A stretch of DNA of 64,000 nt from assembly GCA_001310415.1 (NCBI GenBank), contig BAXE01000027.1, forward strand, positions 1 through 64,000. Direction: 5' to 3'. Every line of letters starts with the position of its first letter. The first letter of the stretch is position 1. Both the position numbers and the translations under genes were made by a program. Origin of the DNA: Enterovibrio sp. JCM 19048. Its GTDB lineage: Bacteria > Pseudomonadota > Gammaproteobacteria > Enterobacterales > Vibrionaceae. Below the pieces are notes generated by a model. That model had not been told where the DNA came from. It saw nothing but the letters and a program-made list of their open reading frames with translations, and made no database searches. Below, in pieces: positions 37,767-56,233 of this stretch.

Positions 37767-37863
37767 CCACAACTCACAGAATAACCTCGTTTGCTGTGAC
37801 ATTATTTGACAAGCCAACGGGGCATCACAGACCATGTGACAAACTTTAGAAAACCATTCATCT

Positions 37864-39755
37864 ATGACAGAGCAAGTTTATAACGCGGGATCCATTGAAG
37901 TACTCAATGGTCTTGAGCCGGTGCGTCGTCGCCCGGGCATGTATACAGACACCACCCGTCCAAATCACCTCGGTCAGGAAGTTATCGACAACAGTGTCGA
38001 CGAGGCATTGGCGGGTCATGCACGCAAAGTGGAAGTCATCCTTCACGCGGATCAGTCGCTGGAAGTTATTGATGACGGCCGCGGTATGCCGGTGGATATC
38101 CACCGGAAGAGGGGGTTTCGGGGGTCGAACTGATCCTGTGTAAACTTCACGCCGGTGGTAAATTCTCCAATAAAAACTACCAGTTCAGTGGTGGTTTGCA
38201 CGGCGTGGGTATTTCAGTCGTAAATGCCCTCTCTAACCGTGTTGAAGTCTCGGTAAAACGTGATGGACAGGTGTATGAAATTGCCTTTGAACACGGTGAA
38301 AAAGTACAGGAGCTGACCGTTACCGGTACCTGTGGCCGACGCGCTAAAGGCACACGTGTGCACTTCTGGCCTGATGCCAAATACTTTGATTCGCCAAAAT
38401 TCTCTGTCTCCCGTCTGAAGAATATCCTCAAGGCCAAAGCGGTACTGTGCCCAGGGCTTGAGATTGTCTTTACCGACAAAATCAACAACGAAACCATCAC
38501 CTGGTGTTACGAAAGCGGCCTGAAAGACTACCTGGCTGAAGGTGTAAAAGGTTACGAGTTGCTGCCGGAAGAGCCGTTTGTCGGCGAATTTAAAGCGCCA
38601 CAAGAAGCGGCAGACTGGGCGGTGATCTGGCTGCCAGAAGGCGGTGAACTGGTTGCAGAAAGCTACGTTAACTTGATCCCGACCGCGCAGGGCGGTACCC
38701 ATGTCAACGGTCTGCGTCAGGGGCTTTTGGATGCGATGCGTGAGTTTTGTGAATTCCGCAATCTCCTTCCGCGTGGCGTGAAGCTGACCGCTGATGATAT
38801 TTGGGATCGCTGCGCCTACGTGCTTTCGGTGAAAATGCAGGATCCACAATTTGCCGGACAGACCAAAGAGCGTCTGTCGTCGCGCCAATGTGCGGCTTTT
38901 GTTTCCGGCGTGGTCAAAGATGCGTTCAGCCTTTGGCTGAATGAACGTCCGCAACTGGCGGAGCAACTGGCAGAAGTCTGTATTGCCAACGCTCACCGCC
39001 GTATGCGCGCGGCCAAAAAAGTAGTGCGTAAGAAAGTGGCTTCCGGCCCAGCACTGCCAGGCAAGTTGACTGACTGTTCTATGCAGGATCTAGCGCGTAC
39101 TGAACTCTTCCTGGTGGAAGGTGACTCTGCGGGCGGTTCTGCCAAGCAGGCGCGTGACCGTGAATTCCAGGCCATCATGCCGCTGCGCGGTAAGATCCTG
39201 AACACTTGGGAAGTCTCCGCCGATCAGGTACTGGCATCGCAGGAAGTGCACGATATTTCTGTTGCCCTCGGTATCGACCCGGACAGCGACGATCTCAGCG
39301 GCCTGCGTTACGGCAAGGTATGTATCCTCGCCGATGCGGACTCGGACGGTCTGCACATCGCAACCCTGCTGTGCGCCCTGTTTGTGAAACATTTCCGTGC
39401 ACTGGTGAAAGCCGGTCACGTCTATGTGGCGATGCCGCCTCTGTACCGTATCGACTGTGGCAAGGAAGTGTTTTACGCCCTGGATGACGAAGAGAAGAAA
39501 GGCGTCCTTGAGCGCCTGAGCCAGAAACGCGCGAAGATCGACGTGCAGCGCTTTAAGGGTCTGGGTGAGATGAACCCGCTACAGCTGCGTGAAACCACCA
39601 TGGATCCGAACACCCGCCGTCTGGTACAGCTCACCATCGATGATCATGAAGAAACCGATCGCATGATGGATATGCTCCTTGGCAAGAAACGCGCTGAAGA
39701 CCGCCGCCACTGGTTGCAGGAAAAAGGCGACATGGCCGAGCTGACCGAAGTTTAA
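37864..39755 (+). CDS. parE: DNA topoisomerase IV subunit B ParE (frameshift)
   Basis: The ATPase subunit of topoisomerase IV, which unlinks daughter chromosomes. The GHKL ATP site is EVIDNSVDEALAGHA and VIDDGRGMPVDIH. The transducer follows. The TOPRIM domain has LFLVEGDSAGGSAKQ and ILADADSDGLHI, with the metal-binding acids. A C is missing at ~38105 (IHPEEGVSGVE). Corrected length is 630 residues, identical to E. coli. It is immediately upstream of parC. Confidence 0.98.
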
Positions 39756-39783
39756 GCAAGAATTTTAAGATCGGACGTTTTCA

Positions 39784-42063
39784 ATGACTGATATCACTTA
39801 TGACGGTGTCGAACAGCTTCCGCTGAGGAAGTTTACCGAGGATGCATACCTCAACTACTCGATGTACGTCATCATGGACCGTGCGCTGCCATTTATCGGC
39901 GACGGCCTAAAACCGGTACAGCGCCGCATTGTGTACGCAATGTCTGAACTGGGCCTGTCGGCGACAGCCAAATACAAAAAATCTGCCGTACCGTGGGTGA
40001 CGTGCTGGGTAAATACCACCCGCACGGCGACTCGGCGTGTTACGAAGCCATGGTCTTGATGGCGCAGCCTTTCTCTTACCGCTACCCGTTGGTGGACGGT
40101 CAGGGGAACTGGGGTGCACCGGACGATCCGAAATCCTTCGCAGCGATGCGTTATACCGAATCGCGCCTGTCGCGCTTCTCGGAAGTGCTGCTGGCAGAGT
40201 TGGGTCAGGGCACCGTTGACTGGCAGCCTAACTTTGACGGCACCATGAAGGAGCCTAAAGCGCTGCCTGCGCGCCTGCCACACATCCTGCTGAACGGCGT
40301 CACCGGTATCGCAGTGGGTATGGCGACAGACATTCCGCCGCATAACGCCCGTGAAATGGCCAACGCGCTGGTGGCACTCATCGATGAGCCGAAGATGGAT
40401 CTGGATGGCGTGCTTGGGCACGTGAAAGGTCCGGATTATCCAACTGAAGCTGAAATCATTACCCCGCAGGTAGAGCTGAAAAAGCTGTACCGTGAAGGCC
40501 GTGGCTCGGTCAAGATGCGTGCTGTCTGGCACAAAGATAACGGTGATATCGTGATCACGGCGCTGCCGCATCAGGTGTCTGGTGCGAAACTGCTGGAGCA
40601 GATTGCCAACCAGATGCGCGCGAAGAAGTTGCCGATGGTGGACGATCTGCGTGATGAATCGGATCACGAGAACCCGACCCGCATCGTGATCGTACCGCGC
40701 TCAAACCGCGTGGATTGCGATCAGCTGATGAACCACCTGTTTGCGTCTACAGATCTGGAAAAGAGCTACCGCGTAAACCTGAACATGATTGGCCTTGATG
40801 GCCGTCCTCAGGTGAAAGGTCTGGTGCAAATTCTGTCTGAGTGGCTGGAGTTCCGCCGCGAGACGGTGCGTCGCCGTCTGCAATACCGCCTGGATAAAGT
40901 GCTGGCCCGCCTGCACATTCTGGAAGGTCTGTTGGCCGCGTATCTCAACATTGATGAAGTGATTGAGATCATTCGCACCGAAGACGAGCCGAAGAAAGAG
41001 CTGATGAGCCGTTTTGGCTCAGCGAGAAACAGGCCGAAGCGATCCTTGAAATCAAACTGCGCCAGTTGGCGAAGCTGGAAGAGATCAAGATCCGCGGTGA
41101 GCAGGATGAGTTGAGCAAAGAGCGTGATCAGCTGGAAAAACTGCTGGGCTCTGAGCGCCGCATGAACACCCTGCTGAAAAAAGAGATCCTGCAGATGCCG
41201 AGAAGTATGGCGACGATCGCCGTTCACCACTGGTTGAGCGCGCGGAAGCGAAAGCCATGACTGAGCGTGATCTGATCCCAAGTGAACCGATCACCGTCGT
41301 GCTGTCTGAAAAAGGTTGGATTCGCCATGCCAAAGGCCATGATGTGGATCCAACGACCCTGAGTTACAAATCTGGCGATGGTTACCTTGCTGCCGCCCGC
41401 GGTAAGAGCAGCCAGCCTGCGGTGTTTATCGGTACCGATGGCCGCAGCTATGCGCTGGAATCCCACTCATTGCCATCTGCGCGCAGCCAGGGTGAGCCTA
41501 TCACCGGCCGCCTGAATATCACAGCAGGCACTTCTGTGCGCCATGTGATGATGGGAGAGAATGAAAATCTGGTGCTGATGCATCGGATGCCGGTTACGGT
41601 TTCGTGTGTAAGCAAGACGATTTGCTGTCGAAAAACCGCAGTGGTAAAGCTTTGCTGAGTCTGCCACAGCTGCCGAGGTTATGCCGCCACAGCGCGTGTT
41701 TGACATCGAAAGCGATGACATCGTGGCGATCACTAACGAAGGCCGTATGCTGGTCTTCCCGGTTAAAGAGCTGCCGCAATTGGGCAAAGGTAAGGGTAAT
41801 AAGATTATCAATATCCCGTCAGCCCGCGCTAAAGCCCGTGAAGAGCTGCTGGCGCAGTTGCTGGTGGTGCCACAGGCGCAACACTCACCCTGCATGCCGG
41901 CAAGCGCAAGCTGTCCCTGAAGCCAACGGATATCGATAACTTCCGTGGCGAGCGTGGCCGCCGTGGCGCCATGCTGCCGCGAGGCTTGCAACGTGTGACT
42001 GCGTTTGAGATTGCGACGCCTGGCAGCGCAACAGATTCACCGGATACCCCGGTAGAAGAATGA
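39784..42063 (+). CDS. parC: DNA topoisomerase IV subunit A ParC (six frameshifts)
   Basis: The DNA-cleaving subunit. The catalytic tyrosine is in AAMRYTES. The quinolone-determining stretch [15 protein letters not shown] has the Ser and Glu typical of susceptible strains. Six single-base losses break the frame at ~39986 (SARTVGD), ~41017 (FGLSEKQAE), ~41191 (EILADAEKYG), ~41581 (LMASDAGYG), ~41670 (LPQAAEVMP) and ~41877 (PQAATLTLH). Most are GGC to GC or CC to C. Restored length is ~761 residues, near the E. coli 752. This is the densest cluster of breaks in the window. It follows parE by 28 bases. Confidence 0.97.
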
Positions 42064-42142
42064 TACCCAGCCCTCTCCGGAGGGCTTTTTTCTGTCAGCT
42101 CAAGAATGTGTAAAGAAGGTTGATGATTTTTAGTAACGCTTG

Positions 42143-42407
42143 TATACCCAAACAACCTGAAGATGCAGGATTCAGCGAGATTGACTGGCGTTGTGATCGC
42201 GGCGTTCCTTTGTAGGTGTAGTCACCTCCATCAAAAAGGAACAACAATGAGCACGGCGTCAGTCAACTCGCCCGAAGGGAGGACATCAATGCGCCCACTC
42301 TTCGTTAAATTCCACGGAAATAGAACGACTATTCCTCGTAAAATTTGCCTCGAATTGAACGCATTAATGACCTCTGAATGCGAGCATCTTCAGGTCGTTT
42401 GGGTATA
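42143..42407. mobile_element. MITE-like element with 24-bp inverted ends
   Basis: Left end TATACCCAAACAACCTGAAG then ATGC (42143-42166). Its reverse complement, with one mismatch in 24, is at 42384-42407. Inside are a small hairpin (AGGTG/CACCT, 42214-42227), a ribosome site and a 58-codon ORF whose 3' end runs into the right arm. No transposase. TA-rich bases at both borders could be a target duplication (TA/TATA). It lies alone between parC and plsC. I suspect one copy of a dispersed vibrio repeat family, but a genome search is needed. Confidence 0.7.
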
Positions 42408-42423
42408 TACTAGTCGCAACTGA
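42247..42423 (+). CDS. Possible 58-residue protein inside the inverted-repeat element
   Basis: The ATG is preceded at ideal spacing by AAAAAGGA. A second ATG (MRPLFVKFHGNRTTIPRKIC) lies 15 codons further on, after GGGAGG. The product is basic with a hydrophobic end (CEHLQVVWVY) encoded by the right inverted repeat. I do not recognise it. Two good start contexts argue that it can be translated; location in a repeat element argues for caution. Confidence 0.4.
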   Translation: MSTASVNSPEGRTSMRPLFVKFHGNRTTIPRKICLELNALMTSECEHLQVVWVYTSRN

Positions 42424-42518
42424 TTTTAGCGCACATGTGTACGCTGTAAATTTTACCCGGCCGCTCCAGGCAGATAGCCATTATTTCGCAGCGGTTCGCC
42501 GGTTTTAGGAGATTTTGA

Positions 42519-54728: not shown

Positions 54729-56233
54729 TTATTCTGCAACTTCAAGGCCAGAGCGGTTCAGCAGGAACTGGACCAGCAATGGGACCGGACGACCGGTTGC
54801 ACCTTTGTTTGCGCCGCCTTTGAAAGAAGTACCGGCCACATCCAAGTGTGCCCAGTTGTACTTCTTGGCAAAGCGTGACAGGAAACAACCTGCAGTGATG
54901 GTACCGCCACCAGGGCCACCGATGTTTGCCATATCAGCAAACGGGCTCTTGAGCTGCTCTTGATACTCTTCGGTCATTGGCAGGCGCCACGCACGGTCAC
55001 CCGCTTGCTCTGACGCATTCACGATTTCGTGAGCCAGTGGATTGTGGTTGGAAATCAAACCACTGATGTGATGGCTCAGTGCCACGATACAAGCGCCTGT
55101 CAGGGTCGCTACGTCAATCACACACTCTGGCTCGTAACGCTCAACGTAAGTGAGGGCGTCACAAAGTACCAGACGGCCTTCAGCATCCGTGTTCAACACT
55201 TCAACGGTTTGGCCTGACATCGTGGTCACGATGTCGCCTGGGCGGTACGCCGCGCCATCTGGCATATTTTCACAGCCAGCCAGCACGCCAATCACGTTAA
55301 TTGGCAGTTCCAGTTTCGCCAGTGCTTTCATTGCGCCAAATACAGACGCTGCGCCACACATGTCGTACTTCATTTCGTCCATGTTAGCGGCAGGTTTCAG
55401 TGAGATGCCGCCCGCGTCGAAGGTCAGGCCTTTGCCGACCAATACGATAGGTTTTGCTTCTGGATCTGGGTGGCCTTTGTACTCGATGACAGACATCATG
55501 GATTCGTTCTTCGAACCCTGACCGACTGCCAGGTAAGAGGTCATGCCCAGCTCTTTCATTTCCTGCTCGCCAATGATCTTGGTGCTGACGTTGGCAAAGT
55601 CATCCGCCAGACGGCGGGCTTGGGAAGCAAGGTACGCAGGGTTTGCCACGTTCGGTGGCATGTTGCCGAGGTCTTTACAGCTTTCACGCCGGATGCGACC
55701 GCCAGACCGTGTGAAATCGCACGCTCGCCCAGGTTCAGCTCGCGGCGTTGGTACGTTGAACACCAGCTTGCGCAATGGACGACGGGTTTCCGGCTTCACA
55801 CTCTTGAACTGGTTGAAGGTGTAGAGCTGTCTTTGGTGCTCTCTACGGCCTGACGCACTTTCCAGTAAGTGTCGCGGCCTTTTACGTGCAGTTCAGTCAG
55901 GAAGCATACGGCTTCCATTGAGCCAGTTTCGTTCAGGGTGTTGATGGTATTTTTGATAATTTCTTTGTACTGGCGTTCACCCAGTTCACGCTCTTTACCA
56001 CAACCCACCAGAAGCACACGCTCAGACAGTACATTAGGAACGTGATGCAATAGCAGCATCTGGCCAGGCTTACCCTCGAGGTCCCCACGACGCAACAGGC
56101 TGCTGATGTAGCCATCGCTGATTTTATCGAGTTGCTCTGCCACAGGTGACAGGCGGCGCGGTTCAAATACGCCAACTACGATACATGCACTGCGCTGTTT
56201 CTCGGGACTCCCGCTTTTTACACTGAACTCCAT
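54729..56233 (-). CDS. pepA: Leucyl aminopeptidase PepA (three frameshifts)
   Basis: A hexameric dizinc M17 aminopeptidase; in E. coli it also binds DNA in Xer recombination and car/pyr regulation. Metal and catalytic residues appear in [15 protein letters not shown] and [12 protein letters not shown]. The N-terminal domain starts [20 protein letters not shown]. Breaks lie at ~55828 (one base lost, joining to [11 protein letters not shown]), ~55745 (net +1) and ~55676 (A lost, KAVKDLGN). The last two cancel, leaving ~25 residues in the wrong frame between them. Corrected length is ~501 residues. It is divergent from lptF. Confidence 0.97.

Follow-up and report, generated by a model that had tools for sequence, protein, structure and literature searches.

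The window, i.e., the whole stretch of 64,000 nucleotides that was analyzed, belongs to a draft assembly (87.5% complete) and contains, at positions 42143-42407, an element of 265 nt flanked by a topoisomerase IV subunit A frame and an acyltransferase frame, which were read as parC and plsC. In line with the original prediction, which had been made from the sequence alone, the element is bounded by inverted ends: the terminal arms (42143-42166 and 42384-42407) are 24 nt long and complementary at 23 of 24 positions. The element had also been described as devoid of a transposase and as present only once in the window, and both statements proved correct, the longest frame inside it having 86 codons and no Pfam match. 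From the TA duplication described below, the mobile unit proper is 42145-42405. The parts of the element are listed in Table 1.

Table 1. Coordinates, strand and supporting evidence for the parts of the element in the window.
Feature	Position	Strand	Evidence
Whole element, with one target-site TA per side	42143-42407	.	End pairing, copies, TA duplication
Left terminal inverted repeat, TACCCAAACAACCTGAAGATGCAGGATTCA, part of the basal stem in the fold	42145-42174	+	End pairing, fold; inner limit from the arm-model match
Left hairpin arm	42175-42271	+	Covariance-model match, E 5.3e-14
Left arm internal-loop motif, 5' side, CGCGGC (consensus CAAGGC)	42198-42203	+	Placed by eye
Left arm internal-loop motif, 3' side, AACAATG (consensus AACGNNG)	42243-42249	+	Placed by eye
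Spurious 58-codon frame, unconserved, stop outside the element	42247-42423	+	ORF list, 108-copy alignment
7-nt centre CC-GAA-GG separating the arms	42272-42278	+	Sequence, element scan
Right hairpin arm, related to the left arm in inverted orientation	42279-42374	-	Covariance-model match, E 2.5e-12
Right arm internal-loop motif, AACGAAG side (CTTCGTT on +)	42300-42306	-	Placed by eye
Right arm internal-loop motif, CGAGGC side (GCCTCG on +)	42347-42352	-	Placed by eye
Right terminal inverted repeat	42375-42405	+	End pairing

Several other observations were made in the window. The gyrase-B-like gene and the topoisomerase IV A gene (37858-42063) are both broken into several frames, perhaps by sequencing errors in this draft genome. 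At 42406-42415, the insertion TA sits in a TATACT sequence which, by eye, could be taken for a -10 box preceding the acyltransferase gene; the TA duplication retains this box but swaps the sequence upstream of it. At 55488-55679, a match to the Rfam family Ysr276 (103.5 bits for a cut-off of 100) was found antisense within a 356-codon frame, aminopeptidase-like by eye, and TATACCC-type ends are absent there.

In its own genome, the element has 63 matches, eight of which are full-length, including the window copy, and matches were present in 23 of the 41 genomes searched (own genome included). A scan of named genomes with the core pattern returned at least 113 stretches, all of them, among the matches listed, in Grimontia or Enterovibrio, which we take to be Vibrionaceae. 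One hundred and eight copies drawn from among the matches listed were aligned, and 81 of the 106 copies with clear ends (two copies without clear end anchors were omitted) had a TA on both sides. The window site is empty in three relatives (L131-L133), where it reads GTATACTAG. Compared with this empty site, the occupied site, ...G-TA-[TACCC...GGGTA]-TA-TACTAG..., displays a simple TA duplication. Eight further sites were compared; empty sites occur among them, most being less clean than the window site.

Variant copies were also observed. A full-length copy directly precedes a second, partial copy and a further fragment in a tandem or nested array (L007/L016, G000:C3:11983-12397). Six elements (L010, L013, L346, L361, L393, and L402) are shortened and have either a single arm or a reduced interior, both ends being retained. 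One of two orthologous copies (L274 versus L031/L219) has an expansion of about 20 nt near the left-arm tip.

A relative encoding a transposase was found in genome G006. This IS630-type insertion sequence of 1097 bp, according to our own placement of its ends, contains a 357-codon open frame with DDE_3 and HTH_33 domains. Its right end, TATACCCATTCAACTTGAAGATGCAGGATTGAG, resembles the window end at 29 of 33 positions by a count made by eye, and its left end is a weak match, agreeing with its own right end at 18 of 26 positions. Similar right ends adjoin transposase pieces in three other genomes (G004, G014, and G233). The genome of the window contains one weak DDE_3 fragment; it gave no match to the G006 protein and has no intact partner. 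A DDE_3 match was absent in 9 of the 18 genomes of the genus. In G007, 28 DDE_3 matches were found, many at contig ends, and thus a multi-copy insertion sequence may break this assembly.

The element is thus short, devoid of a transposase and bounded by inverted ends, with dispersed copies, a target-site duplication and an empty site. The multiple copies, the paired ends, the TA duplication, the empty site and the IS630-type relative with a matching right end support its classification as a non-autonomous transposable element (MITE) of the Grimontia/Enterovibrio group. The original prediction had proposed such a MITE-like repeat, to be recognized by copies in the genome and its relatives and by TA duplication at empty sites, and both were found.

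The 265 nt fold into very stable structures on both strands, at -117.1 kcal/mol (+) and -129.2 kcal/mol (-), with z-scores of -11.3 and -12.1, respectively, and none of 200 shuffled sequences was as good. The folded strand is a three-way junction in which the end repeats form a basal stem from which two hairpin arms of about 97 nt branch. In the 108 aligned copies (among the matches listed), 96.8% of the cells were paired, compared with 35-40% when the partners were slid. Double changes affected 33 of 101 pairs in these 108 copies among the matches listed, with 411 double-change cells versus 155.5 in shuffles, although these copies are related, so a single change is counted many times. A search of Rfam gave no match at E up to 1 for 42100-42450, and 12 loci with relatives likewise had none at E up to 0.5; on this basis, a known RNA family was rejected. 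The short hairpin mentioned in the original prediction understates the structure, the element being paired over most of its length. The conserved feature of the element is its structure and not a coding sequence, and the earlier proposal of a structured RNA with paired ends holds to that extent; that it acts as RNA rather than as single-stranded DNA, we infer.

A search of the order with the end motif gave matches in 12 of 247 genomes (own genome included), with elements in other genera. Among 38 loci scanned, 26 had paired ends; 21 of these, two of which belong to the genome of the window, contained two large arms, and five were shortened. The two-arm elements are 263-281 nt long, with a basal stem of 22-30 bp and arms of 94-112 nt (mostly 96-102), and most have a 7-nt hairpin between the arms. 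Ten elements were subjected to the fold test and gave z-scores from -6.2 to -15.4. In 15 elements, the left arm could be aligned with the right one when each was read inward, as though a single hairpin had given rise to two relatives in inverted orientation.

To model the arm by covariance, 24 arms taken from 12 elements were used for training (30 pairs over 96 positions); the calibration was short, so the E-values are rough. Using this model, matches were detected in 58 of 119 genomes and 25 of 60 genera of the order (E 1e-3), in 51 of 185 genomes and 50 of 177 genera of the class (E 1e-4), and in 69 of 299 genomes and 34 of 154 genera of the phylum (E 1e-5), the three samples having some genomes in common. 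Of these 69 genomes, 38 do not belong to the class, and a single family accounts for 34 of the 38. A convergent pair, with a plus arm followed by a minus arm, was found in 39 of 58 re-searched loci (27 of 44 and 12 of 14), separated by 5-10 nt, mostly 7 and once 22. No pair in the reverse order within 30 nt was seen among the re-searched loci. The other 19 loci had no convergent pair at E 0.01, some being at contig ends and some being shortened elements. The window element itself contains two convergent arm-model matches about 7 nt apart between paired ends, the training set of the model having included a relative of the window copy (L342).

In an alignment of 86 arms, 93.1% of the cells pair, double changes were found in all 30 pairs and all four Watson-Crick types in 25 of them. 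The covariation score was 1.041, compared with 0.221 in shuffles; further pair types did not exceed the shuffles in these 86 arms (245/500). An internal loop, CAAGGC/AACGNNG, is nearly invariant among the arm-model matches. In 72 arms of 43 non-training loci, its 5' side had C 70, A 71, G 71, G 72, and C 70 times (this A being the second of the motif, the first being found in 69 of all 86 arms), and its 3' side had A 70, A 72, C 71, G 60, and G 70 times, two loop columns per side having been modelled as pairs. These matches were chosen and aligned by a model that holds both the motif and the pairs, so the figures lean toward the model, and the invariance of the loop, as well as the G·U excess described below, is therefore partly due to selection by the search. 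The left arm of the window copy deviates from the motif (CGCGGC/AACAATG).

The ends are paired within nearly every element. When L411, located at a contig end, was left out, 37 of 38 convergent pairs had end repeats scoring at least 36, the maximum reached by 500 random pairs being 36. Thirty-six end pairs fell into 21 sequence clusters at a score threshold of 14/20, the TATACCC... type being the commonest (10); the two pairs left unclustered were L444, whose score of 18 falls below the null, and L413, which scored 42 and has unclear boundaries. Different ends are thus found on related cores. Several of the other end types start with CTAG or hold TA at their edge, as IS630-type insertion would leave; the TA in CTAG was reportedly described by Tenzen and Ohtsubo in 1991. 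A DDE_3 match was absent in 13 of 18 element-bearing genomes, which had mostly been chosen for other end types, and in the other five, 10 of the 16 fetched DDE_3 loci were checked and none had the ends of the element. No IS630 partner for the other end types was therefore found in these 18 genomes and the loci checked. An insertion sequence with L407-type ends was sought in G134 and not found, only four places having those ends, two of which are the element itself. In G495, from another class of the phylum, the left end of locus L441, TATACCCAAACCACCTGAAGATGCAGGATTCA, is almost identical to the end found in the window family, which suggests transfer or long retention.

The balance of G·U pairs and A·C mismatches can indicate which strand matters, since a palindrome kept solely as double-stranded DNA is expected to show equal numbers of G·U and A·C. 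Read in the orientation of the arm, the arm-model alignment contained 142 G·U versus 20 A·C, and 115 versus 16 in the 72 arms of 43 non-training loci. In the 108 copies among the matches listed, with pairs pooled from forward, reverse and no-G·U folds, nine columns of the left arm had at least five G·U versus one with A·C; in the right arm, two G·U columns were found versus 11 A·C columns. Such a mirror pattern would be predicted for arms that each function on the inward-reading strand. When the arms of the 108 copies (among the matches listed) were pooled, there was no strand bias (G·U 155, A·C 182, at Watson-Crick core pairs), and the stem of the end repeats, with two G·U versus seven A·C columns, was omitted from the arm comparison. 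In 15 elements, one of them from the genome of the window and several from one family, a fold without G·U gave a split of 23 to 10 (p 0.035).

Changes after insertion were analyzed in 11 orthologous pairs, three of which derive from a single locus shared by three genomes. The wobble changes in these pairs were divided 18 to 5 in the same direction (one change being counted twice), whereas private mutations of copies, with L033 and L034 omitted, displayed no arm-oriented preference (21 versus 23). Selection is thus clear on the spreading lineage and uncertain on each resident copy. Elements diverged at 69 of 2922 sites, compared with 266 of 4385 in the 200-nt flanks (2.4% versus 6.1%), and were slower than their flanks in 10 of the 11 pairs, the eleventh (L292/L324) having 7.2% versus 6.8%; conversion between copies could account for this slower divergence. 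No compensatory double change was found among the 69 post-insertion changes. Taken together, the covariation of all 30 pairs, the nearly invariant loop and the excess of G·U over A·C (142:20) suggest that a single strand, RNA or single-stranded DNA, seems to be under selection.

Two readings of the locus that treat it as part of ordinary gene expression have virtually no standing. The position of the element between the topoisomerase IV A and acyltransferase genes would suit a leader or terminator region of the downstream acyltransferase gene, but the site is empty in relatives and the element is present elsewhere in the genome. Around the copies, the gene-context check, made with a crude ORF caller, showed no clear bias toward the 3' ends of neighbours, and terminator-like hairpins were found within 60 nt of 32 of 163 copies versus 2 of 163 at about 300 nt. 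A MITE carrying a small expressed gene, as originally predicted from a strong ribosome site and a 58-codon frame said to end in the right arm, deserves equally little credit. The window copy does have an open frame, an RBS-like AAGGA and an ATG, and frames of at least 50 codons, counted with 60 nt of flank, were found on the given strand in 21 of the 108 copies and on the other strand in 56 (among the matches listed). However, the stop (TGA, 42421-42423) lies 14-16 nt past the element, the presumed ribosome site, AAGGAAC, is part of the arm helix, where it pairs with GTTCCTT, and the ATG (42247-42249) is made of the last three bases of the AACAATG of the left-arm loop. The start-codon column of the 108 copies among the matches listed contains CCG 50, AAG 47, ACG 5, ATG 2, AGG 2, AAA 1, and CAA 1 times, and in 100 of these 108 copies among the matches listed the frame from this column closes at 20 codons. 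The window copy has a 1-nt deletion that is shared with one other copy (2 of 108, among the matches listed). Neither the start nor the open frame is conserved across copies, and the small gene was rejected; moreover, the outer helices of different arms have a median identity of 0.35, which makes a peptide common to the families most unlikely.

The main rival to a role as RNA is that the structure serves movement as DNA, both arms of an extruded or replication-exposed strand being recognized by a structure-reading recombinase or transposase, with ends that merely pair mutually. Integron attC hairpins, considered by eye for comparison, carry RYYYAAC/GTTRRRY boxes at the base of their stem. A role of the structure in DNA movement would fit ends that vary between families yet match inside each element (21 clusters for 36 elements), the same inward orientation of the arm at each end, the 13 of 18 element-bearing genomes without a DDE_3 match and the lack of compensatory doubles among post-insertion changes, and G-T wobble in single-stranded DNA would leave the same asymmetry as G-U in RNA. 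We nevertheless regard it as rather unlikely, because one end type matches an IS630-type end and the TA duplication is that of IS630-type transposition of double-stranded DNA, as described in PMC2170065. Maintenance of the arms by mutation alone is much less probable still. Palindromes self-correct by template switching, and quasi-palindrome correction of this kind, which implies no function, would agree with the good fold of both strands. It should not, however, prefer G-U over A-C (142:20), fix loop bases at 70-72 of 72 arms, or hold the arm length near 97 nt across the phylum; part of this evidence comes from model-selected matches, but this does not apply to the 9:1 and 2:11 columns in the window family.

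Small repeats of this general kind are known. PMC2759123 describes ERIC, IRU and RU-1 (MITEEc1) as small, strongly structured repeats that have TA at their termini and duplicate TA, and PMC6267812 links MITEPlu5, with 552 complete copies, to CCC-type IS630 elements. An ERIC-like copy (L040, labelled by eye) starts with TATACCCAAACAACCTGAAGTTGCAGG, the same TATACCC end as the window family. Only the ends are in common, however: ERIC has 127 bp and one stem (from the L040 fold), the window element has 265-266 bp and two arms, and the genome of L040 (G034) gave no arm-model match. YPAL/RU-2 of Yersinia, of the same general kind according to PMC2759123, is set apart by its description, with about 168 bp. 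According to PMC2229807, the pneumococcal RUP is a MITE that an IS630 transposase (IS630-Spn1) probably mobilizes in trans, at TA; it is distinguished, by that description, by its 107 bp and one end-to-end stem without arms. The CIR elements of Caulobacter and Brucella, as described there, resemble the window element in having two arms joined by a linker, but have no terminal inverted repeat and carry a GANTC motif in the loop (PMC2229807). The MITEs of Thiomargarita nelsonii, compared by description, are abundant, TATA-ended and folded as a long hairpin, and are likened to IS630 in PMC4853749. The bacterial MITEs described in the 2007 review (PMC2229807) consist of a single stem running from end to end or, in the case of CIR, of two arms whose ends are unpaired, and the combination of paired ends and two arms is different from these. 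A literature search found no description of the twin-arm core, which is weak evidence, as subscription papers were thinly covered and an earlier description is possible.

We consider it likely that the element is a MITE moved by an IS630/Tc1-mariner type transposase, without a coding role, whose twin-hairpin core works as a single strand. Such a transposase would act in trans on the paired ends and insert the MITE at TA. The interior would consist of two relatives of one ancestral hairpin of about 97 nt, convergent around a CC-NNN-GG centre, and the end repeats are predicted to close the three-way junction into which the whole strand folds. Since the arms converge, a transcript would first meet an arm in the working orientation whichever flank it enters from. 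The arms would act as single-strand structures, most likely RNA, and we infer that the core is a module at the RNA level. A conserved factor of the cell probably reads the internal loop, and it may process or shield the transcripts that cross the insertion, which would make the copies tolerable. The ends would follow the transposase, and the twin-hairpin core appears to be more widely shared.

A broader possibility, to which we give somewhat less than even credence, is that the twin convergent hairpin is a selfish module spread across the phylum, read as RNA by a conserved protein of the host or the transposon, which has outlived its transposons through some twenty sets of ends. In that case, the window would hold one copy of a structured mobile RNA element of a new class. 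Bacterial MITEs are usually seen as shrunken IS elements with an unimportant interior; here, the interior appears, in its shape, to be more widely shared than the ends; its loop motif is nearly invariant and its pairing is arm-oriented. This raises testable questions, namely what reads the motif and why many end types carry the same core, and the covariance model of the arm can be used for annotating unexplained repeats in many genomes.
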